Shown here: piece by piece, positions 8,856 through 46,334 of the stretch
Layout: every line of letters begins with the position of its first letter
How positions within the stretch are numbered: position 1 is the stretch's first letter
Translations under genes and position numbers: made by a program
Notes under the pieces: model-generated
Database searches by the model: none
Told to the model about the DNA's origin: nothing
Seen by the model: only the letters and a program-made list of their open reading frames with translations
Virus record (IMG/VR): IMGVR_UViG_3300044800_000271
Span: 1-64,000 of that record
Length of the DNA: 64,000 bases
Direction: 5' to 3' (one strand)
From: a virus

Positions 8856-8892
8856 GAATAGCGACTGGCAACAGCCGCTATTCTTTTGTTTT
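8856..8892 (+). terminator. rho-independent terminator
   Basis: A perfect eight-base-pair stem (GAATAGCG with CGCTATTC) encloses a 12-base loop and is followed directly by TTTTGTTTT. It lies 29 bases after the stop of the 75-residue gene and before the glycosyltransferase gene, separating two plus-strand transcription units. Confidence 0.85.
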
Positions 8893-8941
8893 CAACACCT
8901 TGCAGATAGCCAAAATTCCCCCGACGCTGTATACTAGGGAT

Positions 8942-10066
8942 ATGAACACCCCATCCAAGACAAGCATAATCAGTCTGGTGCTGGTCACTTTCATCGTTTC
9001 TTGGGGCCTGTTGCTGTTCAATCTGGGCAGCCAATCGATGATGTTCGATGAAAAGTACTACGTGTCGGCTGCCAAGGATTTCCTCGCCGGAACGCCGACG
9101 ACCAACCCCGAACATCCTCCGGTGGCGAAGTATTTCATCGCCGCTGGCATGCGGGTGCTCGGCGACAATCCGTGGGGCTGGCGCATCATGGGCACCCTAT
9201 TCGGTGCCGTCCTCGTGGTCGTGATACTGCTTTGGGTGCTGGAACTGACGGGCAGCAGAAGCACCGCCCTCATCGCCGCCGCCTTGCTCGTCCTCAACAA
9301 TTTCTGGTTCGTGATGTCCCGAGTGGCGATGCTGTCCATCTTCGGCTTGACCTTCTCTGCCATCGGGCTGTATCTCTACACTTTGTCACGCACGAGGGGA
9401 TTGTGGATCGGCTACTCCGGTCTGGCATTCGGACTCGCTGTCGGATGCAGGTGGAATGCGGGGGCAATGCTCTTCGTCATCGGCATCCTGTGCCTCGTCA
9501 CGGACAAGAGCGTGCGCAAGCCGATGGTGCTGTACGCCGCCGCCGCCAGCGCCTATGCGCTGAGTTTCATCCCCCTGATGGTACGTGAGCACGACGCCCC
9601 GAGTTCCTTCGTCGGGATGCAGGTGTTCATGCTGGGATTCCACAAGCACGCTGTCAGCGTTCCGGGATTCTCGGAGGCGTGGTATAACTGGATTTTCCGC
9701 ACGCATCCGCAGGATAGTTTGCCTTACTTGGTGGGCAATCCGGCGATTACGGTGTTCGGCATCCTTGCCCTCGCCTTCATCCTGTACCGCCGAGACAAGA
9801 TGATCGTCGCCATGCCGTATCTCGTCAACCTTGGATTCTGGGTGGTGACTCCCCGCCCCGCCACGTATTACTACTACTATCTGGATGCGTTCGTGTTCCT
9901 CGCTCCCGCGATAGCGGTGGCGTGCTGGCAGTTGGGCGAAAGCAAGAAGATGCCCTTCAAGCTGGCACCGGTCGCGGTTGCGTCGGCATTAGTTGGGTTC
10001 GTTTCCTACTACGGCGTGATGGCGGGATTGCCCGCGCCGTGGAACTGTATTCTTGGCTGTCATTGA
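8942..10066 (+). CDS. GT39-like (protein O-mannosyltransferase-type) membrane glycosyltransferase
   Basis: A 374-residue polytopic membrane protein with about nine to ten hydrophobic segments; the first is residues 8-28. The first external loop has the GT39/PMT signature: an acidic pair in MMFDEKYYV and, near residue 58, EHPPVAKYFI followed by GDNPWGWR. Family members take a lipid-linked sugar (polyprenyl-phosphate mannose in known cases) and glycosylate proteins or lipid A outside the membrane. It is shorter than cellular PMTs and seems to lack their C-terminal MIR region. Start ATG 8942 lies after a strong terminator, so it probably has its own promoter. Sugar and acceptor are unknown. Confidence 0.75.
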   Translation: MNTPSKTSIISLVLVTFIVSWGLLLFNLGSQSMMFDEKYYVSAAKDFLAGTPTTNPEHPPVAKYFIAAGMRVLGDNPWGWRIMGTLFGAVLVVVILLWVLELTGSRSTALIAAALLVLNNFWFVMSRVAMLSIFGLTFSAIGLYLYTLSRTRGLWIGYSGLAFGLAVGCRWNAGAMLFVIGILCLVTDKSVRKPMVLYAAAASAYALSFIPLMVREHDAPSSFVGMQVFMLGFHKHAVSVPGFSEAWYNWIFRTHPQDSLPYLVGNPAITVFGILALAFILYRRDKMIVAMPYLVNLGFWVVTPRPATYYYYYLDAFVFLAPAIAVACWQLGESKKMPFKLAPVAVASALVGFVSYYGVMAGLPAPWNCILGCH

Positions 10067-15068: not shown

Positions 15069-15597
15069 GACACACGCTTGGCGTTGGGTAGACGATGACT
15101 ACGCAGGTCCAGAATACTCCGCTTATGCTGGAGCTAGACAACGATGTACCAATCCTAAAGACCCTGAGTGGGGTCATTATGGTGGACGAGGCATTAAGTT
15201 CCAATTTGTCTGTTTTAAGCAATTCCTTGCTGAAATCGGCTGCCGTCCCGTGGGCACAATGCTTGACCGCAAAAACAATGATGGCCACTACGAACCCGGA
15301 AATGTCCGCTGGGTCACCCCGAAAGTTTCCGCCAACAATCGCCGTCAGAGCTTTGGCAAGGGGCGTCATGGAAAAGCCAATGGGATGTTTGGAAAAAAAC
15401 GTCCTGATTTAGCTGAATGGAATCGGCAGAACCTCAGAAATAAACCGCACGCTCCCTTCTCTGAGGAACACAAGAAAAACATTAGCGAAGCAAAGTGCCG
15501 CTGGTGGGCGACTAAAACAGCCGAGCAGCGCCGTCAAATAACCCAAAAAGGAACTGAAGCTTCACAGTTGGGAAGGAAGAATGCATCCACTAGTTAG
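15061..15597 (+). CDS. HNH/AP2-like homing endonuclease with NUMOD3 motifs
   Basis: A 178-residue protein. The N-terminal half (YAGARQRCTNPKDPEWGHYG, then LDRKNNDGHYEPGNVRWVT) is the pattern of phage HNH-type endonucleases of the His-Me finger class. The second half has NUMOD3-like elements (NGMFGKKRPD and PFSEEHKKNISEAK), short DNA-binding helices common in homing enzymes. Lower GC than neighbouring genes. Its end overlaps the first glycosyltransferase gene by 17 bases, so it sits exactly at the border of the glycan cluster. Confidence 0.78.
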   Translation: MNKTHAWRWVDDDYAGPEYSAYAGARQRCTNPKDPEWGHYGGRGIKFQFVCFKQFLAEIGCRPVGTMLDRKNNDGHYEPGNVRWVTPKVSANNRRQSFGKGRHGKANGMFGKKRPDLAEWNRQNLRNKPHAPFSEEHKKNISEAKCRWWATKTAEQRRQITQKGTEASQLGRKNASTS

Positions 15598-16240
15598 CGC
15601 TGTAACCCCCACTTACAACCGCCGTGAGTTTTTTCCGCGGGCGATAAGGTGTTTCCTTTCGCAGGACTACCCCAATATTGAGTGGATAATCGCTGACAAT
15701 GGAACAGACCAAATTCGTGACTTGCTGCCCGAAGACCCAAGGATCAAGCATTTTCCCCTGTTGGGAACGAAACTAAACCACGGGCAACTAATGAACATTT
15801 GTTGTGAACGTGCAGCAGGAACTTTTTGTATAGTTGAAGATGATGACGATTTTTATACGTCCAGCAGGGTCTCCCGGCAAATCCAGCCGATGCTCAATAG
15901 CCCGCAAATTACGATAACGGGTACAAGTCAACTGTACTACGCCTTGCAAGGGACGCAGAGGGCGTTTCATTATGTAAACAAGACCAACCTGGCTTGGATC
16001 GGTGCGATCGCGTTCCGCAAGTCCGCTTGGGAGGCGCATCGGTTCAACGACAAGCCCCACGGAGCGGACTACGACTTCCTGACCCAAGTGCCCCGCGACC
16101 GGTGGTGCGACTTGGCGGACACAAGCTTGCTGGTGGCGGCGTCACATTCCACGAACGCCGCCCGGAAATCCATGCCTTCGTCGTCCTTCGTGGAGGTGCC
16201 GTGGGCGGCCGTGCAGGCGATCGCCAAGGGGGAGTTGTGA
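15581..16240 (+). CDS. GT2 glycosyltransferase
   Basis: A 219-residue GT-A-fold family 2 enzyme. The nucleotide-sugar-binding start is SAVTPTYNRREFF with the ADNG element near residue 38. The metal-binding acidic cluster is EDDDDFY near residue 86. Later YDFLTQVPRD resembles the catalytic acidic region. Family members transfer a sugar from a nucleotide donor, with inversion, to a growing glycan at the cytoplasmic side of the membrane. It is short for GT2, so it may be a minimal catalytic domain. First glycan gene of the cluster; the next gene overlaps its stop by four bases. Confidence 0.82.
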   Translation: MHPLVSAVTPTYNRREFFPRAIRCFLSQDYPNIEWIIADNGTDQIRDLLPEDPRIKHFPLLGTKLNHGQLMNICCERAAGTFCIVEDDDDFYTSSRVSRQIQPMLNSPQITITGTSQLYYALQGTQRAFHYVNKTNLAWIGAIAFRKSAWEAHRFNDKPHGADYDFLTQVPRDRWCDLADTSLLVAASHSTNAARKSMPSSSFVEVPWAAVQAIAKGEL

Positions 16241-17082
16241 GTGGTATTGAAGAACATATGGGTTTTTATACCTACATGTGGCTACGAGAAGACGGGACAC
16301 CTTACTATGTAGGAAAGGGTCAAAAACGTAGAGCTTTCATTAGTTCTGCCCATGCAGTTCATCGTCCAAAAGACCGCTCTCGCATTGTTGTTTTTCCCAT
16401 GTTAAACGAGGCTGAAGCTTTTGAGTCTGAAATAGTTATGATTGAACTTTTTGGTCGCAAAGATAAAGGAACTGGCATTCTTCACAACATGACAGATGGC
16501 GGAGACGGATCGTCTGGAACGCTGATACTAACTGAGGAAGTCCGGGAGGCAAAGCGCAGAGCAGGCCGCATTGGTGGCAAGAAGGGCGGCAAAACGCAAG
16601 GGCGCATCGAAGCGTTGACAGGACACGGCGTTAAGAATTTGACTCGTGAAGTCTGCGCTAGGGGTGGTCATACTCAGGGACTTATCCAAGGAAAAAAGAA
16701 CGTAGAAAGCGGCTTGCTGGCCCGCATTCGAACCCCAGAACATCAGAAAATCGCAGGAATCGCTGCTGGAAAGAAAGCCGTTGAAAGCGGACGAATACAA
16801 GCATTGGGACATATACAAGGGCGCAAAAACGTCGAGAGCGGCCAAATACAAAAGCTGGGCAAAACTTACGGTCCCATCAATGGGCGTATCAACGGACGCA
16901 AAAATGCTGAAAACGGACGAATACAAGCATTAGGAAGAATTCAGGGTAAGCTCAACGCTTCACGACCAGAGGTCAAAGAAGCGCAGGTAAGGGGTCGGCA
17001 TACTCGCTGGCATGCTAGCAGGAACATCATTGATCCAGATTGTTCTTATTGTCATAACGGAGAACCCAATGCCGCTGTCTGA
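16237..17082 (+). CDS. GIY-YIG homing endonuclease with repeat tail, inside the glycan cluster
   Basis: A 281-residue protein. The GIY-YIG core is GFYTYMWLREDGTPYYVGKG, starting at residue 8, with a later Glu (EAEAFESEIVMIELFG). From about residue 100 the protein consists of short Gly/Lys/Arg-rich repeats related to VESG-x-L/I-x-x-I/L, which continue to a C-terminal CSYCH. The same repeats form the tail of the endonuclease at 31651, so the two genes are paralogues. GTG 16237 follows AAGGGGGAG and overlaps the previous stop; ATG 16258 is the alternative. The only non-glycan gene inside the cluster. Confidence 0.85.
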   Translation: MSGIEEHMGFYTYMWLREDGTPYYVGKGQKRRAFISSAHAVHRPKDRSRIVVFPMLNEAEAFESEIVMIELFGRKDKGTGILHNMTDGGDGSSGTLILTEEVREAKRRAGRIGGKKGGKTQGRIEALTGHGVKNLTREVCARGGHTQGLIQGKKNVESGLLARIRTPEHQKIAGIAAGKKAVESGRIQALGHIQGRKNVESGQIQKLGKTYGPINGRINGRKNAENGRIQALGRIQGKLNASRPEVKEAQVRGRHTRWHASRNIIDPDCSYCHNGEPNAAV

Positions 17083-17806
17083 TATTACAGTCGCAATTTC
17101 GAGCTTCTGTCGCTGGGGCTATCTCGTTGAATGCCTCAAGCAGATCAAGGAACACCTACCAGAATGTCCAGTCATCGTGGCGGATGATTCCTTCGATGAT
17201 CGATGCGCCACCATAGCTGGTCCAAGCTGTATACGCCTTGCGCCGGATTCGGGGCTCACAGTCAAACGCTGCCGCATAGTCGAGGCGACAACGACACCCT
17301 ACATGCTTCTATTCTGCGATGACTTTGCTGCGAACACCAAGGGATACAGGGACAAATTGACCGAAGCTGTGGATTTGCTGGACACGCACTCAGAGATTGA
17401 TTTGGTGGGTGGTCGCGTAGACAACAATCCCTATGAAGCCAATCTTGTGCACGACGCAGAAAAAAATGTGATCCGCGAAATTCGCTTGGTGCCTGACGGA
17501 TCGCCATATCAACGATGTGACCTCGTAGTGAATCATTTCATAGCACGGGTATCCGTGCTGTTGGAGGTGCCCTGGGATACCGACGTTGTGAAAATCGGGG
17601 GAGAACATGGGCAATTCTTCTGGCATCGCAAGAAAGCTGACAAGGTCACGGTTTGGCTTCCGGGCTGGAACATCAATACGCTCTCTCTTGGTTACGGACC
17701 TGAGGTGCAAGACCCAAGATACAACGGCTTCCGCAGGCGTGCTTTCACCATGGGGCACACGATTATGCTGAGAAAAGAAGGAATCAAGGATTGGATAGGA
17801 GCCTAA
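17069..17806 (+). CDS. GT-A glycosyltransferase (GT2/GT12-like)
   Basis: A 245-residue GT-A-fold enzyme: N-terminal VAISSFCRWGYLVECLKQI, the SGLTVKRCRIVEATTTPY segment, then LLFCDDF as the DxD-like metal site near residue 88. GGEHGQFFWHRKKA near residue 175 corresponds to the acidic catalytic region. The arrangement recalls beta-1,4-N-acetylgalactosaminyltransferases (GT12), but donor and linkage cannot be read. ATG 17069 follows CGGAGAA and lies within the end of the endonuclease gene, restoring coupling across that insertion. The next gene starts immediately after its stop. Confidence 0.75.
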   Translation: MPLSDITVAISSFCRWGYLVECLKQIKEHLPECPVIVADDSFDDRCATIAGPSCIRLAPDSGLTVKRCRIVEATTTPYMLLFCDDFAANTKGYRDKLTEAVDLLDTHSEIDLVGGRVDNNPYEANLVHDAEKNVIREIRLVPDGSPYQRCDLVVNHFIARVSVLLEVPWDTDVVKIGGEHGQFFWHRKKADKVTVWLPGWNINTLSLGYGPEVQDPRYNGFRRRAFTMGHTIMLRKEGIKDWIGA

Positions 17807-18511
17807 ATGAAAGCGCTTATCGGAGTCATGTCCTGCGAACGAGACTCGGCCAACGGCTGCCACGATGCCATCCGGCGCACGTGGGTGACCCGCATGGTAC
17901 CGGGGGAACTTGACTACAAGATTTTCGTCGGGCAGGGCGACCGTGCTCTTGCCCCGGATGAGGAGCGGGTGGACGTTCCGGACGGCCAGCCATGGCTGCC
18001 TGAAAAGGTGCAGGAGATGCGAAAATGGGCGCTTGAACACGGGTACGAGTTCATGTTCAAGGCTGACCGCGATACATACCTCTCGCCGAGGCGATTGATC
18101 GCCAGCGGCTTCGAGAAATTCGACTACGTCGGGCACTTCCCGATGCACCCGCAGGAGGGCTTCATACCCGTGGTGGGGGATTGCCGGGGCTTCTACACGT
18201 ACGCCTCCGGGGGCTGCGGGTACTGGCAGAGCAAGCGGGCGATGGAGGCCATGCTCGCCGCGCCGCTCGATGAAAAGCGGCTCGACAACAAGGGCATCCC
18301 GGCCGAGGACCTCTGGGTTCCCAACGTGCTCTTTCCGCTCGGCATCCTCGGCTACCACAATCCGAGATACCACTTCAAGGGGGATCGGCTGCAACTGTAC
18401 GGCTATGACGGCATAACGGTGCATCTCTCCAAACGGACCGGCTCCTACGAGCCAAGCTGGATGGATGCGGCCCATGCAATTTCACTGCGAGACTGCGGCG
18501 ACACGCTATGA
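17807..18511 (+). CDS. GT31-like glycosyltransferase, copy 1
   Basis: A 234-residue protein with the GT31 (Galactosyl_T) pattern: N-terminal strand ALIGVMSCERD, RRTWV near residue 25, the DxD metal motif in KADRDTYLSP near residue 86, the acceptor loop GGCGYWQSKRAME near 140 and AEDLWVPNVLF with the catalytic acidic pair near 166. GT31 enzymes are inverting beta-1,3-galactosyl- or N-acetylglucosaminyltransferases, mostly known from eukaryotes; here it acts presumably in the cytosol since no membrane anchor is present. One of five paralogues in this cluster. Its stop overlaps the start of copy 2 by four bases. Confidence 0.75.
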   Translation: MKALIGVMSCERDSANGCHDAIRRTWVTRMVPGELDYKIFVGQGDRALAPDEERVDVPDGQPWLPEKVQEMRKWALEHGYEFMFKADRDTYLSPRRLIASGFEKFDYVGHFPMHPQEGFIPVVGDCRGFYTYASGGCGYWQSKRAMEAMLAAPLDEKRLDNKGIPAEDLWVPNVLFPLGILGYHNPRYHFKGDRLQLYGYDGITVHLSKRTGSYEPSWMDAAHAISLRDCGDTL

Positions 18512-19191
18512 GGCTCCTGATCGCAATCAAAAGCTGCGAACGCGACATGCTGAACGGCTGCCACACGGCTATCCGCGAGACATGGGGAAAGGATTTTCCC
18601 CCCAATGTTGACGTGCGATTTTTTGTCGGCAACGGGAGCGCGTCATTAAAAAGCGACGAGGTCCGGCTTGCCGTTGGAGATGACCTAACGGCCCTTCCCT
18701 CGAAAGCCCGTGAAATGGCGGGATGGACGGTTGAAAACGGATATGACCCCGCATTCTTTTGCGATGTGGACACATTTGTCAAGCCCGAGCGACTCCTCTC
18801 GTGCGGTTTTGAGGGTTACGACTATTTCGGATATTTCGGGAATGGGTTCCCTCCGGGTGTTCAAATCCCGACATTTGGCGACCACAGGCTCGGCGACATA
18901 GCGGTTTGGGCTTACGCTTCGGGAGGGGCGGGCTATTTCCTGTCCCGCCGTGCGGCCGAAGTGATTTCCAAGATGGTGCCAGCGCACTATGCGGAAGATG
19001 TTAGCGTGGGCCACGCTCTCGGACCGCTTATCGCGGCGGGCCAACTGACGGGATTCGCCTCCCAGCAATTCGACAATTATGTGGTTTGGCACCACTGCAC
19101 TTGGGGCAAGACACGCTATACATGGCCGAACAGCGTGGGATTCAATCCGGCTTGGATGTACGAAAGCTACAGGAAAGGACAGGGGGTCTAA
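18508..19191 (+). CDS. GT31-like glycosyltransferase, copy 2
   Basis: A 227-residue paralogue of copy 1. The same landmarks are visible: LLIAIKSCERDMLNGCHTAI, RETWG, a metal motif CDVDTFVKPERLL near residue 88, ASGGAGYFLSRRAAE near 145 and YAEDVSVGHALGPL near 165. The acceptor-side C-terminal half differs from copy 1, suggesting a different acceptor. It overlaps copy 1 by four bases and ends one base into the fucosyltransferase start, so the three genes form one coupled unit. Confidence 0.75.
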   Translation: MRLLIAIKSCERDMLNGCHTAIRETWGKDFPPNVDVRFFVGNGSASLKSDEVRLAVGDDLTALPSKAREMAGWTVENGYDPAFFCDVDTFVKPERLLSCGFEGYDYFGYFGNGFPPGVQIPTFGDHRLGDIAVWAYASGGAGYFLSRRAAEVISKMVPAHYAEDVSVGHALGPLIAAGQLTGFASQQFDNYVVWHHCTWGKTRYTWPNSVGFNPAWMYESYRKGQGV

Positions 19192-19973
19192 TGGTTGTGC
19201 GGCTCCATGGTGGCTTGGCAAACCAGATGTTTCAATACGCTTTTGGTGAGTCGGTCGGCGCTGTCCGGAAGGAAGAGGTTTTCTATAATCGCATCGGCCC
19301 GGAAAGGCTTGACGTTTTCAACATAAAGCCCATCAAGTTTGCTCCGGAATCGGGTCCTCTTTTCGGGGACATCAGTTGCTATGATGAAAAAGTCTACAGC
19401 GCTCCGAACGGCACGTCGTTCGTCGGATGCTGGCAGACCGAGAAGTATTTTGACGAGAACATGGTTCGCCGGGAATTGTCGTTTAAGAACAAGCCGTCTG
19501 AGGAATCCCAAAAAACGGCGGACACCATCGTGGCTGCTGGTGCGACGAGCGCGTTCCTTCATGTCCGCAGGGGAGACTATGTCTTTGACTACAATCAAAG
19601 GTTTCACGGCATGCCAACGATGCGTTATTACAACGAGGCCGTCGAACGCATCCGCGCACGCCACAAAGATGCGCGTTTCTGGGTCTTTTCTGACGATCCC
19701 GATTGGTGCCTTGCCAATTTTCCGAGCGATTTCACGGTCGTGGGCCACAATAAGATCATCAGCCGGGACATCCCCGGACGGGAACACGAGGACATCTGGC
19801 TCATGAGCCTGTGCCATCACGGCACTATAGCGAATAGCTCATTCTCGTGGTGGGGCGCTTGGTTTGGCACGCAACCGGACAAACTTATATTTGCCCCCAA
19901 GCAATGGTTTATAGCCACCCATGTAGGCAGCAGTGACATCGTTCCTGAAAGGTGGACCAAACTTGACAACTGA
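19191..19973 (+). CDS. GT11 alpha-1,2-fucosyltransferase family enzyme
   Basis: A 260-residue GT11 enzyme. Motifs in order: GGLANQMFQYAFG at residues 6-18, the donor-binding HVRRGDY near 124 and SSFSWWGAWFG near 216, all hallmarks of inverting alpha-1,2-fucosyltransferases that use GDP-fucose. The length is near that of bacterial relatives. A Gmd/Fcl pair capable of making GDP-fucose lies 3.5-7 kb downstream in the same cluster. Given the GDP-heptose genes nearby, a GDP-6-deoxyheptose donor is also possible. ATG 19191 abuts the previous stop; longer in-frame starts lie inside the GT31 gene. Confidence 0.87.
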   Translation: MVVRLHGGLANQMFQYAFGESVGAVRKEEVFYNRIGPERLDVFNIKPIKFAPESGPLFGDISCYDEKVYSAPNGTSFVGCWQTEKYFDENMVRRELSFKNKPSEESQKTADTIVAAGATSAFLHVRRGDYVFDYNQRFHGMPTMRYYNEAVERIRARHKDARFWVFSDDPDWCLANFPSDFTVVGHNKIISRDIPGREHEDIWLMSLCHHGTIANSSFSWWGAWFGTQPDKLIFAPKQWFIATHVGSSDIVPERWTKLDN

Positions 19974-20835
19974 TCTCATCATCGGAATGGCATCCGGGTA
20001 CAACTGGGATATGCTGTACCCGTTTGTAGTGTCCCTGCGAAGAACGGGCTATACTGGGCGCTGCGTTCTAGTTTTTGGCACCGCAACCGTAGCTGAAAAT
20101 AACCCAAAACACAAAGCAGCCAACGAAGACCCCTCCCTGTTGCTGGAAAAACTAGCCGAATATGGTATTGAGACGCTAGACATCGGATCATTCGATGAAC
20201 ATCCGAATGTGTTTCGCTTCAAAGTTATATCGGAGTATATCAAGGGCGCAAAAGACCTGCGCTACGTTCTAACCGCCGACACGAGAGACATCGTATTCCA
20301 GTCTAATCCGTTCGATTGGCTAGCACGGAACCTCGGCAGCAGCAAATTGGTAGTCGTGTCCGAAGCCATACAACTCAAACGCTGTTGGCCGTGGAGGGCT
20401 ATTACTCTTGAGGCTTTCGGTCATGACGTTTACTACTCCATGGAAGAAACTGAAATCTGTAATGCTGGAGTCATCGCAGGTACTCCTGAAGACGTAAGCG
20501 AACTACTTCTTGGGGTTTACAAAATGTCCAACACAGATATGCGGCTCAAACGCTTCAAGGTCAGCTATGATGACATGCCGTCTGACCAAGCGGCTATGAA
20601 CATCATCATCCGAAAGGAGCCTTGGGCGTCTAAAACAAAAATTGCCACTGTCTGGGATGGCTTTGTTTTCGGGGCTCACCATCTCAACAACATATCGGGC
20701 TTGTCGTACAGGATGGAGGGTTCGTCTAACTACTGCTTTCAACTTCATGAAGCATCAAGTCCGGTTACAATTCTCCATCAGTACGACGGAGTAAAAGAGT
20801 GGCAAGAAGCTATACGGAAAAAATTCAATGGATAA
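19963..20835 (+). CDS. glycosyltransferase-like protein, GT-A fold (GT8-like)
   Basis: A 290-residue protein. IIGMASGYNWDMLYPFVVSL opens like a GT-A transferase. LTADTRDIVFQSNPF near residue 103 carries a D-x-x-D metal site as in GT8-related enzymes, NAGVIAG near 167 and SDQAAMN near 207 match the second half of that fold. TTG 19963 is preferred over GTG 19933 because AAAGGTGG precedes it at good spacing; it overlaps the fucosyltransferase end by 11 bases. Donor and acceptor unknown. It is less GC-rich than the GT31 genes, hinting at a separate origin within the cluster. Confidence 0.65.
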   Translation: MTTDLIIGMASGYNWDMLYPFVVSLRRTGYTGRCVLVFGTATVAENNPKHKAANEDPSLLLEKLAEYGIETLDIGSFDEHPNVFRFKVISEYIKGAKDLRYVLTADTRDIVFQSNPFDWLARNLGSSKLVVVSEAIQLKRCWPWRAITLEAFGHDVYYSMEETEICNAGVIAGTPEDVSELLLGVYKMSNTDMRLKRFKVSYDDMPSDQAAMNIIIRKEPWASKTKIATVWDGFVFGAHHLNNISGLSYRMEGSSNYCFQLHEASSPVTILHQYDGVKEWQEAIRKKFNG

Positions 20836-21559
20836 GTCCACAGAAAAGATACTGAAACTCGTCTCGGAAAAAGACTGGACCGACTACTGTGTGATGAGGC
20901 AAAGGTGGTATGACGACGGTCGAGAAGACACACTCAGGATAGACTATCTCCTCGACGCTGACAGCGTTGTATTTGACGTTGGCGCGTACCAAGGGGGGTG
21001 GACAGCAGACCTATTGAAACGATGCGGCGTCATCCCCGCTGCCGTGTACTTGTTTGAGCCGGTTTTTGAGTTTCATCAGACGGCGAGCAAAAGATTTGAG
21101 AACACGCCGCAAATTAAGGTATTGAATTTTGCTCTTTCTGACAGAGACGGTGAGGCTTTTATAGACGTTGACGGGGGGAGTTCAAGCCTTCATCTTTCAG
21201 GTGAAACTCTTACAAAAACTCAGGATATTGTGGGGTTTATTCAACAGGAGAGGTTGGCAAAGATTGATCTAATCGTAGATGATGGCTCTCATAACCCTGT
21301 TCATCAAGTCCTGACAATTAAAATGTTGTTTCCGTTGCTCGGTCCAAAAGGCATTTATATCTGCGAAGACATCCGTCAGGATGGGGGATGCGATCCCGCC
21401 TCTATCCGAAACAGTCTCACAGAATCCGGTTACAAGTTTGAGATGAAGGAATTCCGAGCCAAACCAGAATTTGCAGATTTAAGCAAACCAGCCGACACTA
21501 TGTGGATAGTGCTCCGGGCGGAAGAAAACGTCAAAAAGTTTAGGGGGGACAAATGTTAA
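20828..21559 (+). CDS. FkbM-type SAM methyltransferase, apparently chimeric
   Basis: A 243-residue class I methyltransferase. The first part (VVFDVGAYQGGWTADLLKRC, YLFEPVFEFHQ, LNFALSDRDGEAF) is the FkbM pattern, usually sugar O-methylation. Where FkbM proteins continue with KID-x-I-K-I-D-x-E-G, this one reads KIDLIVDDGSHNPVHQVLTI, then LFPLLGPKGIYICEDIR. That ending is typical of a different methyltransferase branch in which DGSH binds metal or substrate. The two halves look spliced by recombination. It probably methylates a glycan made by neighbouring enzymes. It overlaps both neighbours by seven to eight bases. Confidence 0.72.
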   Translation: MDKSTEKILKLVSEKDWTDYCVMRQRWYDDGREDTLRIDYLLDADSVVFDVGAYQGGWTADLLKRCGVIPAAVYLFEPVFEFHQTASKRFENTPQIKVLNFALSDRDGEAFIDVDGGSSSLHLSGETLTKTQDIVGFIQQERLAKIDLIVDDGSHNPVHQVLTIKMLFPLLGPKGIYICEDIRQDGGCDPASIRNSLTESGYKFEMKEFRAKPEFADLSKPADTMWIVLRAEENVKKFRGDKC

Positions 21560-22146
21560 CTGATGCTCAAATTAGTGAAATCTTGAAGGGCGAAGCGCCA
21601 CCAGAGGCTTACAAGCATGCGACGCTTATAGAGTATGGCAAACGGTTTCAGTTGGATTTACTCATTGAAACCGGGACGCACTTAGGCGACGGGGTCGAGG
21701 CAACGAAGAGGCACTTCTCTGAGGTGTACTCTATCGAGGTCGGCCCGACTTACTTCAAGAACGCAGAGAAGAGATTTGAAAACGACACCAATGTTCACAT
21801 CTTGTTGGGTCACAGCATAGATGTCCTGAGACGACTCCTGCCGACCCTCACCAAGAAGCCGTTGTTTTACCTTGACGCACATTTCCGATGGGACTTGACC
21901 ACCCCAGCCAATTTGGATTGTGATCACAGCCCGGTCAAGGGGGAGCTAAACACAATCTTCACTCTGTGCCCTGACAGCGTCATCATTATAGACGACGCTC
22001 GGCTATTCAACGGCGGGAATGTCGGATGTGCTTGCTCGCCAGCACTTGGAGAATTGGAGCGTCTCGTTGCGGAAAAGAAGCCCGATTGGGTATTCGAAAT
22101 TGAGCGTGACATGATGCGCCTTCATCCGCGACAAGAGGGCAAGTGA
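21553..22146 (+). CDS. class I SAM-dependent methyltransferase-like protein
   Basis: A 197-residue Rossmann methyltransferase-like protein. LLIETGTHLGDGVEATKRHF holds the glycine-rich SAM site near residue 36, VYSIEVG gives the acidic residue that binds the ribose, and FYLDAHFRWD and SVIIIDDARLF are later strands. The pattern is common in sugar-cluster methyltransferases. Second of three consecutive methyltransferase genes; it overlaps the preceding gene by seven bases and the next by four. Substrate inferred to be a glycan residue. Confidence 0.7.
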   Translation: MLTDAQISEILKGEAPPEAYKHATLIEYGKRFQLDLLIETGTHLGDGVEATKRHFSEVYSIEVGPTYFKNAEKRFENDTNVHILLGHSIDVLRRLLPTLTKKPLFYLDAHFRWDLTTPANLDCDHSPVKGELNTIFTLCPDSVIIIDDARLFNGGNVGCACSPALGELERLVAEKKPDWVFEIERDMMRLHPRQEGK

Positions 22147-22721
22147 TGGATTTCATTTCATATAGTCAAATAGGGCAAGACACATTCGTTTATGACCAGT
22201 TGGTGAAGCCCTTCAACAACCTGTTGGGAACTTTTCTTGACATCGGGTGTAGCGACGGCGTTGCGATCAACAACACTCTAGCGTTGGAGAGGTTGGGGTG
22301 GCGGGGACTTCTCGTTGATATTGATCCCGAGGCGATCAAGAAGTGCAAAATCAACCGGACGAGCCCCGCTATCTTGGGCGACGCAATGACAATGGATTGG
22401 TCTGCGGTCTGCGAAGAGTACTGCCTCGGAAAATCCATTGACTACCTGTCGCTGGACATCGACGACTTAGCCATTCCGGGTACAGATTGGGCTGTCCATG
22501 CCCCCCGCTGGGCCGCTATGGTTTTATCCGTGCTGGAGAATCTTCTGGCTTCGGGATTCTCGTTCCACGCCATAACTTGCGAGCATAACGGATATCTAGA
22601 CGGCGGCGAGGGTAAAGCAGCCATGCAGGAGCTTCTGAAAGCGAATTCTTACAGGTTGTTTGCGGAAGGCACATATCCCCCTTCTGGGTGGTCACAAGAT
22701 GATTTCTGGCTCAAATTATAG
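22143..22721 (+). CDS. FkbM-like methyltransferase
   Basis: A 192-residue protein with the N-terminal [10 protein letters not shown] box typical of the FkbM branch, then [17 protein letters not shown] as the SAM-binding loop, [12 protein letters not shown], and YLSLDIDD at the position of the catalytic/ribose strand. FkbM enzymes O-methylate sugars or polyketides. Third of the methyltransferase set, followed after 19 bases by the nucleotide-sugar dehydratase gene. Length is short but all core strands appear present. Confidence 0.75.
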
Positions 22722-22740
22722 CCACTCAAGAGTGGAAAAA

Positions 22741-23727
22741 ATGAAAAAAGCACTCATCACAGGTATCACCGGGCAGGACGGATCGTATCTGGCGGAACTC
22801 CTGCTGGAGAAGGGCTACGAGGTCCACGGCATCATCCGCCGCTCCAGCAGCTTCAACACAGGCCGGATAAACCACATCTTCGACCGCCTGCACCTGCACC
22901 ACAACGACTTGACCGATGGCAGCGCCCTAAGCCGCCTCATGGGGGAGGTCAAACCAGACGAGGTTTACAACTTGGGGGCGCAGAGCCACGTGCGCGTCAG
23001 CTTCGACATTCCCGAGTACACCGCCGACGCGGACGCCCTCGGGACGCTCAGGCTCCTTGAGGCGGTCAAGGCGCAGTGCCCGGAGTCCAAGTTTTACCAA
23101 GCGTCGTCCAGCGAGATGTACGGAAAGGTGCTGGAAATCCCCCAGACCGAAAAGACGCCGTTCTACCCCCGGAGCCCCTATGGCATAGCCAAGCTCTTTT
23201 CGTACTGGACGGTGGTGAATTACCGCGAGATGGGCATGTTCGCCTGCAACGGCATCCTGTTCAACCATGAGTCTCCCCGCAGGGGCGAGACTTTCGTGTC
23301 GCGCAAGATCACCAAGGCCGCCACTAGGATACGGCTGGGGCTGCAAGACGAACTCCTGCTCGGCAATCTGGACGCCAAGCGCGACTGGGGATACGCCAAG
23401 GAGTACGTGGAGGCCATGTGGCTCATGCTCCAACAGGGCACCCCGGAGGACTTTGTCATCGCCACGGGCGAGACGCACACCATACGGGAGTTCTTGGATG
23501 AGGCGTTCGGATACCTCGAAATGGACTGGACAAAATATGTGGGGATCGACCCCAAGTACTACCGCCCCACGGAGGTAGACCTCCTGCTGGGCGACGCAAT
23601 GAAGGCAAAGACAGTATTGGGTTGGGTGCCCCAAACCAAATTCCGCAGCCTAGTGCGCTTGATGGTGGACTCGGATTTGGTCGATGCCCGCGGGGAGAGG
23701 AACCATGAAAATTCTATTCGCCGTTAA
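22741..23727 (+). CDS. gmd: GDP-mannose 4,6-dehydratase family enzyme
   Basis: A 328-residue extended short-chain dehydrogenase/reductase. NAD(P)-binding [10 protein letters not shown] starts at residue 8, the catalytic SSSEMYG is near 122 and YGIAK (Tyr and Lys) near 147; [10 protein letters not shown] and [10 protein letters not shown] are hallmark Gmd strings. It converts GDP-mannose to GDP-4-keto-6-deoxymannose. The same sequence family includes GDP-heptose 4,6-dehydratases (WcbK/DmhA type), a real alternative because GDP-heptose genes lie in this cluster. ATG 22741 gives the exact family start. Its end overlaps the next gene by 23 bases. Confidence 0.9.
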
Positions 23728-24415
23728 TTCTTGGGATGTGGCCGCCAAACACGGTTTCCACCAAGTGATTCGCGATACTTGGGGCGGGGATGTCACCCCC
23801 GCCGACCTGCGTTTCTTCATGCCCCGAGTGTCGGATCAGCGGTCGCTGCCGGATGAAGTCTTCGTTGACGTGTCAAGAGACTACGATTGCATTTGTCGCG
23901 AAGTTCAAGAAGTCCTTCGTTGGTCCGTTCGGGAAGGATACGACTTCACCATTTTGCTTAGTACCGACTCGTTTCTGATCCCCCAGAAAGTCTTGGCGTG
24001 CGGCTTCGAGAAATATGACTACTCGGGCGACTTCGCGTTTAATGAGACTGTTCCTTTCGGCGAGGTTATGGGGGATACTGTAAACTGCACTTTCAATACA
24101 CAGGAAGGTTACAGGGTACATCGACACCTTTATAATTGGGCTGGTGCCGGGCCTGCGCGAATACTGTCCAGAAAAGCAACCGCCGTGGTTGCCGAAAGGA
24201 CGAAAGAGGCGGAGTACTGGTACGCCGCCGACGACATTATGATCGGACAAATACTAGGGCCGCTCATTAAAAAGGGTGAAATTACCGCTTGGCGCATTCC
24301 CAACTATAACGGCGAAATGGTTTGGCACTACAAGAACTATCCGGAGAACCAGAATACTCCTTACAGCCCATCCACGGGGTGGATGCAAAGGATGTACACA
24401 GAGCACCGGACTTAG
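23705..24415 (+). CDS. GT31-like glycosyltransferase, copy 3
   Basis: A 236-residue diverged paralogue: [42 protein letters not shown] near residue 145 and [15 protein letters not shown] near 173 follow the GT31 plan. At the metal site the usual D-x-D reads [10 protein letters not shown], keeping only one Asp, so activity or metal use may differ. ATG 23705 lies inside the end of the gmd gene. The C-terminus contains Tyr/Pro/Asn-rich sequence around [15 protein letters not shown]. Confidence 0.68.
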
Positions 24416-24428
24416 TGGGGGGTTTACT

Positions 24429-25100
24429 ATGATTTCGCTTTTACATACAACTGTTAGACCGAACGCTTGGAAGACCGCGGCCGACAATTGGTTTCAAAAC
24501 TGCGACCATTCAGGGAACGTAGAGTACGTGCTTGTGCCTGAGAAAAAGCAATTTCCAAGTTTGAGCAATCTGGGGGTTCCGTTCGAGCACCAAGTTGTTG
24601 AGTACAACGGAAACAATCCAACCCCCGTAGGAGGATACAATTTTGCTGCTCAAATTTCTCATGGGGAAGTCCTTGTTCTTGTTGCGGATGATTTCTATTC
24701 CGCACCCCACTGGGACACCAACCTTCTCAATTTGCTAAACGGTAAGCTCGATCAGGAAGTTGCTGTTTGGGCAAACACAAACATGCCTTCTTTTGATCCG
24801 TACTTCATTTCGTTTCCGATTATCACTCGACCGTATTACAAGCGGTATGGCTACTTGTTTTGCCCTGAATATACGTCTTGTTATGCCGACGTGGAATTCT
24901 ATGAAGTCACCGAACTAGATAAAATAGAGATCATTGATGCTCGTAACGTTTTGATGTTCCAACACCTTCGTGGGGGCATAGGCGGCGCATTTCGCGACGA
25001 CGAGGATTATATGAAGCACGGGGGACCCGGAGACCGTAGTGGAGACCTTTACTCTAAACGCAAAGCGGCTGGATTTCCGCGAGAAGTGTTACCACAATGA
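24429..25100 (+). CDS. GT2-like glycosyltransferase
   Basis: A 223-residue GT-A-like protein: ISLLHTTVRPNAWKTAADNW at the N-terminus, GGYNFAAQISHGEVLVLVAD near residue 68, where family 2 enzymes have N-x-A-x-x-x-A-x-G, and a metal site ADDFYS near 87. The C-terminal part (MFQHLRGGIGGAFRDDEDY) may correspond to the catalytic region. ATG 24429 follows a GGGGGG run. It overlaps the next gene by four bases. Sugar specificity unknown. Confidence 0.68.
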   Translation: MISLLHTTVRPNAWKTAADNWFQNCDHSGNVEYVLVPEKKQFPSLSNLGVPFEHQVVEYNGNNPTPVGGYNFAAQISHGEVLVLVADDFYSAPHWDTNLLNLLNGKLDQEVAVWANTNMPSFDPYFISFPIITRPYYKRYGYLFCPEYTSCYADVEFYEVTELDKIEIIDARNVLMFQHLRGGIGGAFRDDEDYMKHGGPGDRSGDLYSKRKAAGFPREVLPQ

Positions 25101-26203
25101 AAGCCACAATCGTTACCACCACCGTCAATATCCCGTCCTTTTTGGGGGGGTACCAGAAAAACGCCAACCAATTCGGGCAGGATGTGAACTTTATTGTTGT
25201 TGGAGATTACAAGAGCGCGGCGAGAACAGCGGAGTACTGCGCCACGATTCCAAACTGTCTATATCTCGATCTGCCAAGTCAGCGGGATTATCTGACACGA
25301 TTCCCGACGCTGCGAGAGCATTTGCCGATCAACTCCGTGGAACGTCGAAACGTGGGTATGATGTTGGCGTACACGACTGGCGCAGATGTAATTATTACGC
25401 TTGACGATGACAATTTAGCAACCGACCAAGACGCTATCGGTCACCACAGAATAGTGGGGACAACAGTGACGCTTCCAACGTACGGCTCTAGCTCCGGATG
25501 GTTCAATGTTTGTTCGTTCCTGAAAGAAGAGAGCGATGTCGAGTTTTATCACCGCGGGTACTCCCCCAAGAATCGGTGGGCAGATTCTTTCGTGACCATG
25601 CAACCCGAACGCCGTAAAGTTGTTGTCAACGCAGGTTTTTGGTTGGACGATCCGGACGTGGACGCCACAACTAGACTGGAAAGAAAAGTCCGGGTTACCG
25701 GATATAAATCAGGTTGGCCGGGTACTATCGCCTTGGCCCGCGGGACTTGGACGCCGTTTGATTGTCAGAACACCGCGTTGACCCGCGAGATCATCCCGGC
25801 TTACTTTTTGAGCCCGTATATTGGTCGGCACTCCGACATCTTCGCTAGCTATGTTATCAATCGGCTTGCAGAACACTTCAATCACGCCATCGCGTTCGGA
25901 GACCCTTGGGTTTTACATGACCGCCATTCACACAATCTATGGAAGGATTTGGATGTAGAACGCGAAGGCATGCAATTGACGGACGGCTTCTGCGATGCCC
26001 TGCGAAAGATTGATATTGCCGCAGACGGCTACCACCAAGGATTCGGGGAAATAATATCCGGATTGAATGCTTGGGCGCGATCTGAAACTCAGCAGAGAAT
26101 CGTTGAAGGTATGCGTCTCTGGCACGGGGCATTCGAAGTATTGGAGGGCACGATGAAAGAGGCACCCATCACTGACATCATCAGCGGGGAGACCAAAGAA
26201 TGA
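25097..26203 (+). CDS. GT75/reversibly-glycosylated-polypeptide-like protein
   Basis: A 368-residue protein with a GT-A core: IVTTTVNIPSFLGG start, RRNVGMMLAYTTGADVIITL followed by DDDN as the metal site near residue 95, and NAGFWLDDPDVDATTRLER near 180. The last resembles the G-x-W-L-x-x-P-D-x-D-A signature of plant reversibly glycosylated polypeptides and related bacterial transferases. Known GT75 proteins interconvert UDP-arabinose ring forms or transfer sugars. The C-terminal 100 residues are helical. It overlaps the preceding and following genes by four bases each, in line with a coupled operon. Confidence 0.62.
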   Translation: MKATIVTTTVNIPSFLGGYQKNANQFGQDVNFIVVGDYKSAARTAEYCATIPNCLYLDLPSQRDYLTRFPTLREHLPINSVERRNVGMMLAYTTGADVIITLDDDNLATDQDAIGHHRIVGTTVTLPTYGSSSGWFNVCSFLKEESDVEFYHRGYSPKNRWADSFVTMQPERRKVVVNAGFWLDDPDVDATTRLERKVRVTGYKSGWPGTIALARGTWTPFDCQNTALTREIIPAYFLSPYIGRHSDIFASYVINRLAEHFNHAIAFGDPWVLHDRHSHNLWKDLDVEREGMQLTDGFCDALRKIDIAADGYHQGFGEIISGLNAWARSETQQRIVEGMRLWHGAFEVLEGTMKEAPITDIISGETKE

Positions 26204-27135
26204 AGAAACGAATCGCAGTAACGGGGGGTTCGGGATTCGTTGGCAAGCACCTAACGAAGAGGCTTGCGCAGAACGAAGGCTACGACGTGGTTTCCCTCAG
26301 CAGCAGTCAATACGATCTGCGCCGCAGAGACCGTGTGGAGGCGATGTTTGACGAGTTGCGGCCCGACATCGTAGTTCATTTGGCCGCTGTTTGCGGTGGA
26401 ATAGGAGCAAACCAGAAGAGTCCGGGAAAGTTCTTCTATGACAACCTGATCATGGGCGTGGAGATGATCGATGTCGCCAAGGAGCGGGGCGTAGAGAAAT
26501 TTGTCCAAGTCGGAACTGTCTGCGCTTACCCCAAGTTCACGCCGTCGCCGTTCACGGAGGACAATCTATGGAACGGCTATCCCGAAGAAACCAACGCGCC
26601 ATACGGAATCGCCAAGAAGGCCCTGCTGGTACAGTGCCAAGCGTACCGCCAGCAGTACGGGATGAACGCAATTTACCTCATTCCGGTAAACCTCTACGGT
26701 CCCGGAGACAACTTCAACCTTGAAAGCTCGCACGTCATCCCCGCGCTGATCCGGAAATGCCTTGAAGCCAAGAAAACCGGAGCCGAGAGCATAACTGTGT
26801 GGGGCACGGGTAGCGCGTACCGAGAGTTCCTGTATGTCGAGGATTGTGCCGAAGCAATCGTTTTGGCCGTGGAGAAGTACAATGGCCTGGAGCCAGTGAA
26901 CATCGGCACGGGATCGGAGATTTCCATGAAGGACCTTGTGGGGGTCATCAAAGAGGTCACGGGTTTCAACGGGGGAATTGTGTGGGATGCTACGAAACCC
27001 GATGGTCAGCCTCGCCGCCGTCTGGACACCTCGCGAGCCCTAGAGACGTTCGGCTTTAAGGCGCACACGACGCTTTCGGAGGGGCTTGGCAAAACCGTTG
27101 CATGGTATACCGAACAAATGCAGGGGACTGTATGA
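26200..27135 (+). CDS. fcl: GDP-L-fucose synthase family epimerase/reductase
   Basis: A 311-residue short-chain dehydrogenase/reductase: GGSGFVGKHL near residue 8, HLAAVCGGIGAN near 64, CAYPKF near 108, YGIAKKA (catalytic Tyr/Lys) near 134 and NLYGPGDNF near 166, all Fcl/WcaG hallmarks. It epimerises and reduces the keto-deoxy product of the Gmd-type enzyme, giving GDP-fucose, or a deoxyheptose if the substrate is GDP-heptose. The usual catalytic Ser before CAYP is replaced by Thr-Val (GTVCAYP), a small deviation. Overlaps the neighbours by four bases. Confidence 0.87.
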   Translation: MKKRIAVTGGSGFVGKHLTKRLAQNEGYDVVSLSSSQYDLRRRDRVEAMFDELRPDIVVHLAAVCGGIGANQKSPGKFFYDNLIMGVEMIDVAKERGVEKFVQVGTVCAYPKFTPSPFTEDNLWNGYPEETNAPYGIAKKALLVQCQAYRQQYGMNAIYLIPVNLYGPGDNFNLESSHVIPALIRKCLEAKKTGAESITVWGTGSAYREFLYVEDCAEAIVLAVEKYNGLEPVNIGTGSEISMKDLVGVIKEVTGFNGGIVWDATKPDGQPRRRLDTSRALETFGFKAHTTLSEGLGKTVAWYTEQMQGTV

Positions 27136-27875
27136 ACGAACTTCTTATCACTGGCGACAAGGGCTACATCGGGTCGCATCTGGTGCAGCTAATGAGCGGA
27201 GAAAGCTGCGACATGAAGGACGGTCAGGACTTCGGGAACATACGCGGCCGCATGTTCGACACTGTGATCCACCTAGCCGCCCACGCGTCCGTGACGCAGT
27301 CTTTGGAAGACCCAGACGAATGCTTGGACAACAATGCTTTCAAGCTGATCCCCTTCCTGACGTGTAACAGGATCGGCAGGCTGGTGTTTTCCTCCACCGG
27401 AGGCGCTATCTACGGCAACCGGCATTTTGCAAAGGAAGAAGAAGCTAGTTGGAACGGGTGCGTATCCCCCTACGGCCAATCCAAGTACCTAGCGGAGCAG
27501 ATCATCCGCCGACTGCATCCGAACCATGTCATCCTCAGGTTCGGAAACGTCTTCGGCGGCAACGACCGCGACAGGAAAGAAGCGGCAGCGCACGCGCACT
27601 TCCGGATGGATAACCCCATAGTGGTCTATGGCGGAACTCAGACACGGGACTTTGTTCACATTGATGTCATTTGCAAGGCGCTCATCAAGGCGACCGTTCT
27701 GGACATGGCGGGAACATTCAATATCGGAAGCGGCGTGGAGACGAGCGTGGCCAGCATAGCCGAAGAGTTTTCTGCAACGAGAAACGTTCCAATAGTTTAC
27801 GAACCCGCACGACTGGGAGAAATAGAGAACGTCTCCTTGGACATCACCCGTGCGCGGGACGCTGGATTGGTATGA
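27132..27875 (+). CDS. NAD-dependent sugar epimerase/dehydratase (GalE-like)
   Basis: A 247-residue short epimerase: ITGDKGYIGSHLV at the N-terminus, HLAAHASVTQSLEDP near residue 58, SSTGGAIYG near 93 and YGQSKYLAEQII (catalytic Tyr/Lys) near 117, then RFGNVFGG. It is shorter than UDP-glucose 4-epimerases (about 330) and has lost the long loops of the substrate domain. Its place between fcl and the heptose kinase gene suggests action on a GDP-sugar of this cluster, but the reaction cannot be assigned. ATGA overlaps on both sides. Confidence 0.78.
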   Translation: MNELLITGDKGYIGSHLVQLMSGESCDMKDGQDFGNIRGRMFDTVIHLAAHASVTQSLEDPDECLDNNAFKLIPFLTCNRIGRLVFSSTGGAIYGNRHFAKEEEASWNGCVSPYGQSKYLAEQIIRRLHPNHVILRFGNVFGGNDRDRKEAAAHAHFRMDNPIVVYGGTQTRDFVHIDVICKALIKATVLDMAGTFNIGSGVETSVASIAEEFSATRNVPIVYEPARLGEIENVSLDITRARDAGLV

Positions 27876-28837
27876 TCATCTCCAGAACACCACTTCGCAT
27901 GAGCTTTGTCGGTGGGGGCACTGATTTGCCCCTGTTCTATGAAAAGAGTCAGGGTGCGGTGATCAGCACGGCGATCAACAAGTACGTCTATATCACGGTG
28001 AACCACAGGTTTGACCACACGATTCGCATCAGCTATTCCCAGACAGAGATCGTGGAGCACATTTCCGATGTCCACCATGACCGATGCCGTGAAGTGATGC
28101 GGGAAGTAGGCGTAGACTCGGGAATCGAAATAACATCCATCGCCGACATCCCGGCAGGAACGGGAATGGGTTCGTCGAGCAGCTTTACAGTTGGGCTTTT
28201 CAATGCTCTTCACGGATTCTGCGGTCGTGTGCAGACAGCCCACCAGCTAGCCGAGCAGGCCTGCAAGCTTGAAATCGACACGCTCAAGGCACCGATAGGA
28301 AAGCAGGACCAGTATGCCGCTGCGTTTGGGGGATTGCATCGCTACCTATTCAACTCCGATGGGTCGGTATTCGTTGATCCCGTGCTGTGCTCACCCGGAA
28401 GACAACGCAGCTTTTTCAACCATCTTATGCTGTTCTACGTGGGGGGGACGCGGGATGCGTCACTGGTACTTGGGGAAATCAAGCCCTCGGAGGACAACCA
28501 CCTACATAGGCTACGCGAGCTTGTTGATGTTTTCTGGCTCGGCCTGACGGGAGATAAGGACATCCGCGAGTTGGGAGAGGTATTAGACTGCGGCTGGCAG
28601 TGCAAAAAGAAAATGTCAGGCGGTATCTCAAACCCGACTATTGACAATTACTATGAGGCGGCTAAGCGAGCGGGAGCCTTGGGCGGCAAGCTTTTGGGTG
28701 CTGGCGGGACAGGATTCCTCTTGTTTTTCTGCGAACCCGACAAGCAAGACGCTGTGCGGAACAGCTTAAACGGCCTTCGCCAGATTGAGTTTGCGCATGC
28801 GCCAGAAGGGAGCAAGATCATATATGTTGGCGGCTAA
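27872..28837 (+). CDS. hddA: D-glycero-alpha-D-manno-heptose-7-phosphate kinase (GHMP family)
   Basis: A 321-residue GHMP kinase. RTPLRMSFVGGGTDLP near residue 5 is the family N-terminal motif, GTGMGSSSSF near 96 is the phosphate-binding loop and GAGGTGFLLFF near 275 is the third motif. The RTPLR-x-S-x-x-GGGTD string is characteristic of HddA and related fucose kinases. It phosphorylates heptose 7-phosphate at C1, giving the 1,7-bisphosphate. Next to gmhA and hddC the assignment is strong. The stop overlaps gmhA by 14 bases. Confidence 0.87.
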   Translation: MIISRTPLRMSFVGGGTDLPLFYEKSQGAVISTAINKYVYITVNHRFDHTIRISYSQTEIVEHISDVHHDRCREVMREVGVDSGIEITSIADIPAGTGMGSSSSFTVGLFNALHGFCGRVQTAHQLAEQACKLEIDTLKAPIGKQDQYAAAFGGLHRYLFNSDGSVFVDPVLCSPGRQRSFFNHLMLFYVGGTRDASLVLGEIKPSEDNHLHRLRELVDVFWLGLTGDKDIRELGEVLDCGWQCKKKMSGGISNPTIDNYYEAAKRAGALGGKLLGAGGTGFLLFFCEPDKQDAVRNSLNGLRQIEFAHAPEGSKIIYVGG

Positions 28838-29402
28838 GCTGTCCGAGTACAGCAAAAACATTCAGGAGTGCTTCAACGAGGTTGATGTGGAAAAGGTGCA
28901 GCGGGCGGCAGAACGATTACTTGCTATCCGCAAGTGCGACGGCACACTTTTCATCATCGGCAATGGCGGAAGCGCAGCCACGGCCTCCCATATGGCTGTT
29001 GATTTCGAGAAAGTCGCCGGGATGCGGGTGGTAAGCCTGACCAATGTGCCGAACATAACCGCATGGGGAAATGATGTCGATTACGAATCGGTTTTCAGCG
29101 AACAATTAAAACGACAGCTTGGACGGCAAGGGCAGCCCGCTGACATCCTCATCGCCATCAGCGCATCCGGGAATTCGCCGAACATCCTGCATGCTGCGGA
29201 ATACGCACGCGGACGGAGCATCTATACGATAGGCTTTATCGGGTTCGGCGGCGGAAAACTGAAAGAGATGGTGGATATCGCTCTTATAATATCTTCCCGC
29301 AACTACGGAGTCGTAGAGGATTTCCACCTTTCTCTAAACCACATCCTGTCGCAATATCTCAAGGACGCCATAAATGAAAGCGTTTCTCCTAGCGGCAGGT
29401 AA
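28824..29402 (+). CDS. gmhA: phosphoheptose isomerase, SIS domain
   Basis: A 192-residue SIS-domain protein, the usual GmhA length. GNGGSAATASHMAVDFEK near residue 47 is the GmhA substrate loop, SASGNSPNIL near 110 the second sugar-phosphate site, and the C-terminal helix has EDFHLSLNHIL with the conserved His. It isomerises sedoheptulose 7-phosphate to D-glycero-D-manno-heptose 7-phosphate, the committed step of heptose synthesis. ATG 28824 fits the family start; an earlier in-frame ATG adds 13 residues. It overlaps hddA and hddC at its ends. Confidence 0.9.
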   Translation: MLAAKLSEYSKNIQECFNEVDVEKVQRAAERLLAIRKCDGTLFIIGNGGSAATASHMAVDFEKVAGMRVVSLTNVPNITAWGNDVDYESVFSEQLKRQLGRQGQPADILIAISASGNSPNILHAAEYARGRSIYTIGFIGFGGGKLKEMVDIALIISSRNYGVVEDFHLSLNHILSQYLKDAINESVSPSGR

Positions 29403-33586: not shown

Positions 33587-33907
33587 ATGCGCAAAACTTA
33601 TCCCCAAAAGGTGTACGGCCTCGGCAGCGAAAAGGCCACGGAAACAGTATTTTCCAAGAACCACTTCGCCAGCTTGGCGGCCTATTCCGAGGAGGTCCGC
33701 CAGCAGATCGCCAGTTGGGGGCTGACTCGGGTAGCTGGGTCGATCTACGAATGCCCCGCATCCCACGATTTCTGGCAGGTCAAGGACGGAAAAATACGGA
33801 AATTAGTCGGCTCTGAGGTTGACGATGGGGACTCAATCCCCGGTGCCCCCGAGGATAAGCCAGCCACGTTTTTGGCTAACATTCTTGATGATTTGAGCTT
33901 CGATTAA
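33587..33907 (+). CDS. small hypothetical protein, 106 aa
   Basis: A 106-residue protein (MRKTYPQKVYGLGSEKATET start) with a helical middle, a segment YECPASHDFWQVKDGKIRKL that looks like a small beta hairpin, and an acidic tail. No family is recognised. ATG 33587 lies right after the shared leader hairpin, which marks it as a properly expressed gene. Its stop overlaps the next start by one base, and the downstream gene is a homing endonuclease. Confidence 0.65.
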   Translation: MRKTYPQKVYGLGSEKATETVFSKNHFASLAAYSEEVRQQIASWGLTRVAGSIYECPASHDFWQVKDGKIRKLVGSEVDDGDSIPGAPEDKPATFLANILDDLSFD

Positions 33908-46273: not shown

Positions 46274-46334
46274 TCAATAACTTACAGGATCAATGTAAGC
46301 GGATACAAATACGAACTTTTCAGTATTGGTGTAT

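Follow-up and report, generated by a model that had tools for sequence, protein, structure and literature searches.

Does a tailed phage carry a membrane enzyme of the kind that, in bacteria, yeast and humans, acts outside the cytoplasm to attach sugars to proteins? This question is raised by the gene at positions 8942-10066 (+ strand) of the 64,000-nucleotide stretch of viral DNA analyzed here (the window), which is part of the linear 103,528-bp virus record IMGVR_UViG_3300044800_000271. Phage GT-C enzymes are known chiefly from O-antigen seroconversion. An initial annotation described the gene as phage-encoded, with about ten membrane spans and the fold of protein O-mannosyltransferases (PMTs) or ArnT, and proposed that the product may serve the phage to glycosylate envelope proteins or lipid A. 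Here, we find that the gene is real and uncommon and that its fold was named correctly. Beyond that annotation, we describe a sister phage, the accessory position of the gene, a serine (S132) at a catalytic position, the loss of the EL4 motif, a missing donor gene, and a nearby island of nucleotide-sugar and glycosyltransferase genes.

Gene, phage record and predicted fold

Based on ORF analysis of the window, the gene is an intact ORF of 374 codons with an ATG start. A longer version could start at a TTG codon at 8900; we prefer the ATG because a TATACT box at 8930-8935 (+), which ends 6 nt 5' of it and may be the gene's own leaderless promoter, argues for this start. Farther upstream, a terminator-like element at 8856-8883 (+) consists of a stable hairpin with a U-rich stretch on its 3' side; the segment 8845-8900 folds with −19.9 kcal/mol (z −5.1), and the hairpin is absent from the output of a consensus terminator scan. 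From the hairpin and the TATACT box together, we infer that the accessory gene is laid out as a self-contained unit, possibly with a leaderless transcript, and the gene probably has its own promoter.

The record represents a tailed phage because it contains genes for a terminase large subunit (48932-52174 of the record) and a head maturation protease (92217-92810 of the record); together with the syntenic phage relatives described below, these genes bear out that the gene is phage-encoded. The terminase large subunit contains a LAGLIDADG insert and is homologous to its counterpart in a related phage only from residue 508, a pattern as expected of an intein. A GT2-like protein encoded at 63390-64000 of the window, and on to 65384 of the record, is interrupted after residue ~199 compared with the related phage, with ends that read CVDDSTQILTQQG... 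and ...TYFTGNS, and looks like a glycosyltransferase with an intein. Homing-endonuclease-like genes (GIY-YIG, HNH) are scattered in the window at 1129-2043, 33907-34902 and 46326-48116.

The 374-aa protein matches the Pfam families PMT_2 (E 1e-12, 49 bits; curated cut-off 26.1) and PMT (E 5e-8, 33.2 bits; curated cut-off 22.7), and the resemblance to the PMT family is thus not due to chance. The NCBIfam protein O-mannosyltransferase model NF058602 matches residues 15-142 (E 4e-16); however, because the score is 58.8 bits versus a cut-off of 800, the protein is not an equivalog of that model. A hydropathy scan identified nine to 10 membrane segments, in line with the spans counted previously, and by manual count 11 long helices fitting membrane spans are present in an AlphaFold2 model (pLDDT 88.5, pTM 0.91), which was generated using an alignment of 56 bacterial relatives.

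With this predicted model as the query, Foldseek and VIA-align placed fungal Pmt4 and yeast Pmt1-Pmt2 on top (Z 32-35, with 35 for Pmt4; rmsd 2.7-3.1 over 362-363 residues), followed by ArnT (Z 27) and oligosaccharyltransferases (Z 22-26). The model thus has a GT-C fold with a PMT membrane domain. The yeast and fungal proteins are the best structural matches across the whole membrane domain of the model; the phage protein, however, has half the length of the yeast proteins and lacks the long segment of Pmt1 that separates its two matched halves. Among PDB sequences, a family profile matched only Pmt1 and Pmt4 (E 5e-22 to 6e-13) and did not reach ArnT at E 1, while a search with the single phage sequence gave no match. 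Weaker GT-C-like matches in BFVD came from a few phages and from Nitrosopumilus spindle-shaped viruses. Altogether, the profile matches and the predicted model identify the product as a GT-C membrane protein homologous to the GT39 PMTs; the PMT side of the initial annotation holds, while its ArnT side is disfavoured.

Catalytic residues and the EL4 loop

The FDE, EHPPVAKYF and GDNPWGWR strings highlighted by the initial annotation are present exactly as described, at residues 35-37, 57-65 and 74-81, respectively. All 101 distinct bacterial relatives are identical to the phage protein at F35, D36, E37, H58, P59, K63, D75, W80, R81, R127 and W171. D36-E37 (9047-9052; this and all following coordinates in this section are on the + strand) aligns with D74-E75, the first catalytic acid motif of the actinobacterial GT39 enzyme MtPMT, and H58-P59-P60-V-A-K63 (9113-9130) forms the HPPxxK signature of the first external loop. 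The phage protein therefore has both the DE motif and the HPPxxK signature of GT39. Activity of MtPMT requires D74, D176, R441 and Y444 (PMC12331936); the D74A/N variants are inactive, and of the D176 variants, D176A and D176N have almost no activity while D176E retains a little (PMC12331936). By alignment, D74 of MtPMT corresponds to D36 of the phage protein.

From the published description (PMC12331936) and an alignment with actinobacterial Pmt, we take the Rx4D motif to hold D176. At the corresponding site of the phage protein, R127-x4-S132 (9320-9337), the second catalytic acid is replaced by Ser; this position is Asp in 94 and Glu in seven of the 101 bacterial relatives and Glu in the sister phage protein. 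The S132 codon, TCC, is at least two base changes away from any Asp codon. Because Ser132 replaces the second catalytic acid, the activity of the phage protein is in doubt. R305 and the aromatic run Y309-Y313 (9854-9880) lie in the region of R441-x2-Y444 of MtPMT; position 305 is K/R in 100/101 relatives, and positions 309, 311 and 313 are aromatic in nearly all of the 101.

The EL4 region (residues 208-266; 9563-9739) lacks the HxYxS...RPxW motif of bacteria and yeast, and this motif is lost in both phage proteins; yeast Pmt1 retains HVYES...SWPFLLRG in EL4, and the two phage proteins instead share FHxHA and W..WI.RT.P in this region. The EL4 loop of MtPMT is believed to steer the acceptor peptide (PMC12331936). 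The phage protein shares with MtPMT the DE motif, HPPLGK (here HPPVAK), the Rx4 motif and the membrane topology, but differs in having S132 and a short EL4; MtPMT, in turn, carries D176, R441-x2-Y444 and a WW-like segment in EL4 (PMC12331936). At its C terminus, the phage protein has a CxxxC motif (C369, C373; 10046-10060) that is common to the sister phage protein and was not seen among bacterial relatives in the alignments shown. By a strict test of these features, the protein is a GT39 homologue, yet it cannot be filed as a working PMT. The phage copy is shortened and strongly diverged.

Relatives, sugar donor and genomic setting

By scanning 84,980 species genomes, we identified >500 bacterial relatives, chiefly from Sphingomonadales and Bradyrhizobium, with ~30% identity; a match at E 1e-6 was present in 21 of 398 Pseudomonadota genomes drawn evenly. 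The best 80 of these relatives are almost all from Sphingomonas, Novosphingobium, Erythrobacter-type bacteria and Bradyrhizobium, have lengths of 400-444 aa, and are ~30% identical to the phage protein across most of its length. In Sphingomonadales and Bradyrhizobium, these short PMT_2 proteins are annotated as phospholipid carrier-dependent glycosyltransferases. They are similar to the phage protein in length and in the FDE, HPxxxK, GDNPxGWR, RxAML, KW/RW, GNP and aromatic-run motifs; however, in addition to the low identity, the phage protein is 30-60 aa shorter, has S132 and the CxxxC tail, and lacks the HxYxS...RPxW motif in EL4 and an adjoining donor synthase. One relative clusters within the Sphingomonas clade although its contig bears the label Bacillus sp. 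2B10, which probably reflects contamination or is wrong.

A GT2-GtrA fusion, built like a polyprenyl-phosphate sugar synthase, adjoins the relative in 37 of the best 80 bacterial loci, chiefly in Sphingomonadales (counted using tblastn, since a strict DPM1 motif scan undercounted). Because this synthase adjoins in 37/80 loci, the bacterial family very likely uses a polyprenyl-phosphate sugar. In the phage record, which may be incomplete, neither a DPM1-like nor a GtrA-type donor synthase was found: tblastn with the GT2-GtrA synthase gave no match, and a domain search found no GtrA domain (PF04138). The GT2 matches in the record are neither of the GT2-GtrA nor of the two-helix GtrB type, and the phage GT2 encoded at 15581 resembles TuaG/SpsA-type enzymes. 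Because no synthase was found in the record, the donor for the PMT homologue would, on this evidence, have to come from the host.

Three scans of IMG/VR with the phage protein or with mixed profiles that included bacterial relatives detected no phage relatives; these scans were keyed on exact motif words, and more distant phage members may have escaped them. A search of IMG/VR with the gmd gene of the phage gave four records with copies that are 81-87% identical, and many more distant ones. By this route we reached record IMGVR_UViG_3300050011_000164 (84.7 kb; phage G405), in which an intact ORF (L198:1492-2577, − strand) encodes a 361-aa PMT homologue (E 2e-57), which was recovered again by a profile of the two phage proteins. 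The homologue is 35-38% identical over the whole protein and shares the short EL4, the CxxxC tail, the gene order and the promoter layout, with GGGTATAATAGAGACATG at the equivalent upstream spot; it differs in having E at 132, K at 170 and S at 245, the last of these in place of the acid E245. In total, 35 predicted genes of the phage have counterparts in G405, with their order largely conserved. In both phages, the PMT gene is followed by the genes at 11588 (with a weak resemblance to antitermination protein Q), 12540 and 14640, the sugar island, and structural genes. In the related phage G402, the flanking genes 7753 and 11588 are present with small genes between them, and the PMT gene is absent. 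Because the gene is syntenic in G405 but absent from this interval in G402, it belongs to the accessory cargo of a single phage lineage. In a tree, the two phage proteins form one group (SH-aLRT 97) with long branches. As a separate observation, several accessory genes in G405 (L198/L199) and G402 (L204) have a −10 box immediately 5' of their ATG as part of a repeated module, TTTTTGGGTATAATAGGGACATG, at least once immediately 3' of a terminator-like hairpin; this suggests that leaderless cassettes occur within this phage group.

We found no other PMT-type GT-C enzyme of phages in 50,697 phage records, PHROGs, and the open-access papers searched. In the INPHARED collection, only two unannotated contigs with bacterial features matched at E <0.01; both are deposited as 'Bacteriophage sp.' yet look bacterial, and we rejected both as sources of a phage PMT. 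In MT835582.1, the PMT lies beside rsmI-like and bacterial-type genes, and in MT836770.1 the match is part of a membrane glycosyltransferase that is 1066 aa long or longer.

Downstream of the PMT-like gene, a glycosylation island at 15581-31669 (+) contains genes for GT2, GT11, a GDP-mannose 4,6-dehydratase (gmd; TIGR01472, 509 bits versus a cut-off of 415), a GDP-fucose-synthase-like protein, an HddA-like kinase, a GmhA-like isomerase, a sugar nucleotidyltransferase, and several galactosyltransferase-like proteins, and a pyruvyltransferase-like gene and a GT2 are present at 61.9-65.4 kb. This content suggests that the phage could synthesize GDP-fucose and possibly GDP-heptose. Copies of gmd are present on hundreds of IMG/VR contigs, and a cyanophage is known to carry Gmd/Fcl/fucosyltransferase sets (PMC9602691). 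The island enzymes work in the cytoplasm, and their targets could be virion parts. Because the PMT homologue would work on the outer side of the membrane, we do not assume a common pathway.

Possible functions of the phage protein

What, then, might the protein do? From the evidence above, we infer its activity, donor, acceptor and purpose as follows, in an explanation for which we consider the scales to be evenly balanced: the phage encodes a GT39-type enzyme, of uncertain activity, that would use a host polyprenyl-phosphate sugar to modify an envelope protein or glycan. The protein would reside in the host inner membrane, take the sugar from the host-made polyprenyl-phosphate sugar at the outer face of the membrane and, with D36 as the catalytic base, transfer it to an exported envelope protein or glycan of the host (or phage); a likely use would be to alter the surface of the infected cell, e.g., by masking a receptor. 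Infection by phage phiC31 requires host Pmt and Ppm1 (PMC5882110), and modification of the protein O-mannosylation type therefore bears on phage entry. This explanation is weakened by S132, the loss of the EL4 motif, the failure to find a donor synthase in the record, and the low NF058602 score (58.8/800 bits).

The same residues are relevant to an alternative that we consider unlikely but worth weighing, i.e., that the protein is a catalytically dead PMT homologue that acts as a decoy or poison by occupying the lipid-phosphate-sugar or the acceptor, or by pairing with a host PMT (yeast PMTs are dimers), and thereby lowers host glycosylation. S132 at an essential position, the altered EL4 in both phage proteins, and their long branches would fit this idea; on the other hand, D36, E37, HPPxxK, R127 and R305 are all retained, although a dead protein would not require them, and the sister protein retains an acid at 132 and K170. 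We give a similarly small chance to an active GT-C enzyme with a surface polysaccharide (O-antigen, capsule) as acceptor, analogous to the type-specific Gtr proteins of seroconverting phages. Phage P22 provides a precedent in that its gtrABC cassette modifies the host O-antigen (PMC8787464), and the phage protein has a remodelled EL4, the loop believed to steer the peptide in PMTs (PMC12331936). However, a Gtr seroconversion cassette comprises a gtrA flippase, a gtrB lipid-phosphate-glucose synthase and a type-specific gene, and neither a gtrA domain nor a gtrB-like gene was found in the (possibly incomplete) record, and the nearest families by sequence and fold are PMTs. Equally speculative, and in our view improbable to the same degree, is that the two proteins form a phage-specific PMT branch without the EL4 motif, and here also without the second acid, that either performs one-acid transfer to an unusual acceptor or functions as a dominant-negative PMT, stripping host glycoprotein receptors and excluding other phages.

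Far less probable is an ArnT-type (GT83) transferase acting on lipid A, as the initial annotation had also proposed. ArnT shares the GT-C fold and is the next match to the predicted model, but its Z of 27 compares with 35 for Pmt4, and the profile misses ArnT in the PDB. ArnT has the first-loop motifs RYA and YFEKP (PMC5377068), while the phage protein has KYYVSA and PEHPPVAKYF; nor does it have the C-terminal periplasmic domain of ArnT, since its last long helix spans residues 341-360 of 374. The proposed second envelope-related gene, an LpxH-like gene at 57360, also fell away: the gene (57360-58091) scores 29.3 of the 134 bits required by the NCBIfam LpxH model and encodes a generic calcineurin-type metallophosphoesterase (Metallophos, PF00149, 1e-11, 46 bits) of a PHROGs group of DNA-repair/metallophosphoesterases. 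It lies near a DNA methyltransferase gene. We regard as least probable of all, and close to negligible, that a bacterial gene entered the record through a chimeric or mis-binned contig. While the sole INPHARED matches are the two bacterial-looking contigs, the presence of a syntenic homologue in another, independent record of a phage largely refutes this idea, and no bacterial relative is closer than ~30% over the full length.

Given that phiC31 needs host protein O-mannosylation, a PMT homologue carried by a phage makes it possible to test directly whether host glycoproteins are rewritten by phages. Moreover, the natural pair of Ser in this phage and Glu in the sister phage at an essential position makes the role of the second acid of GT39 enzymes testable without design.
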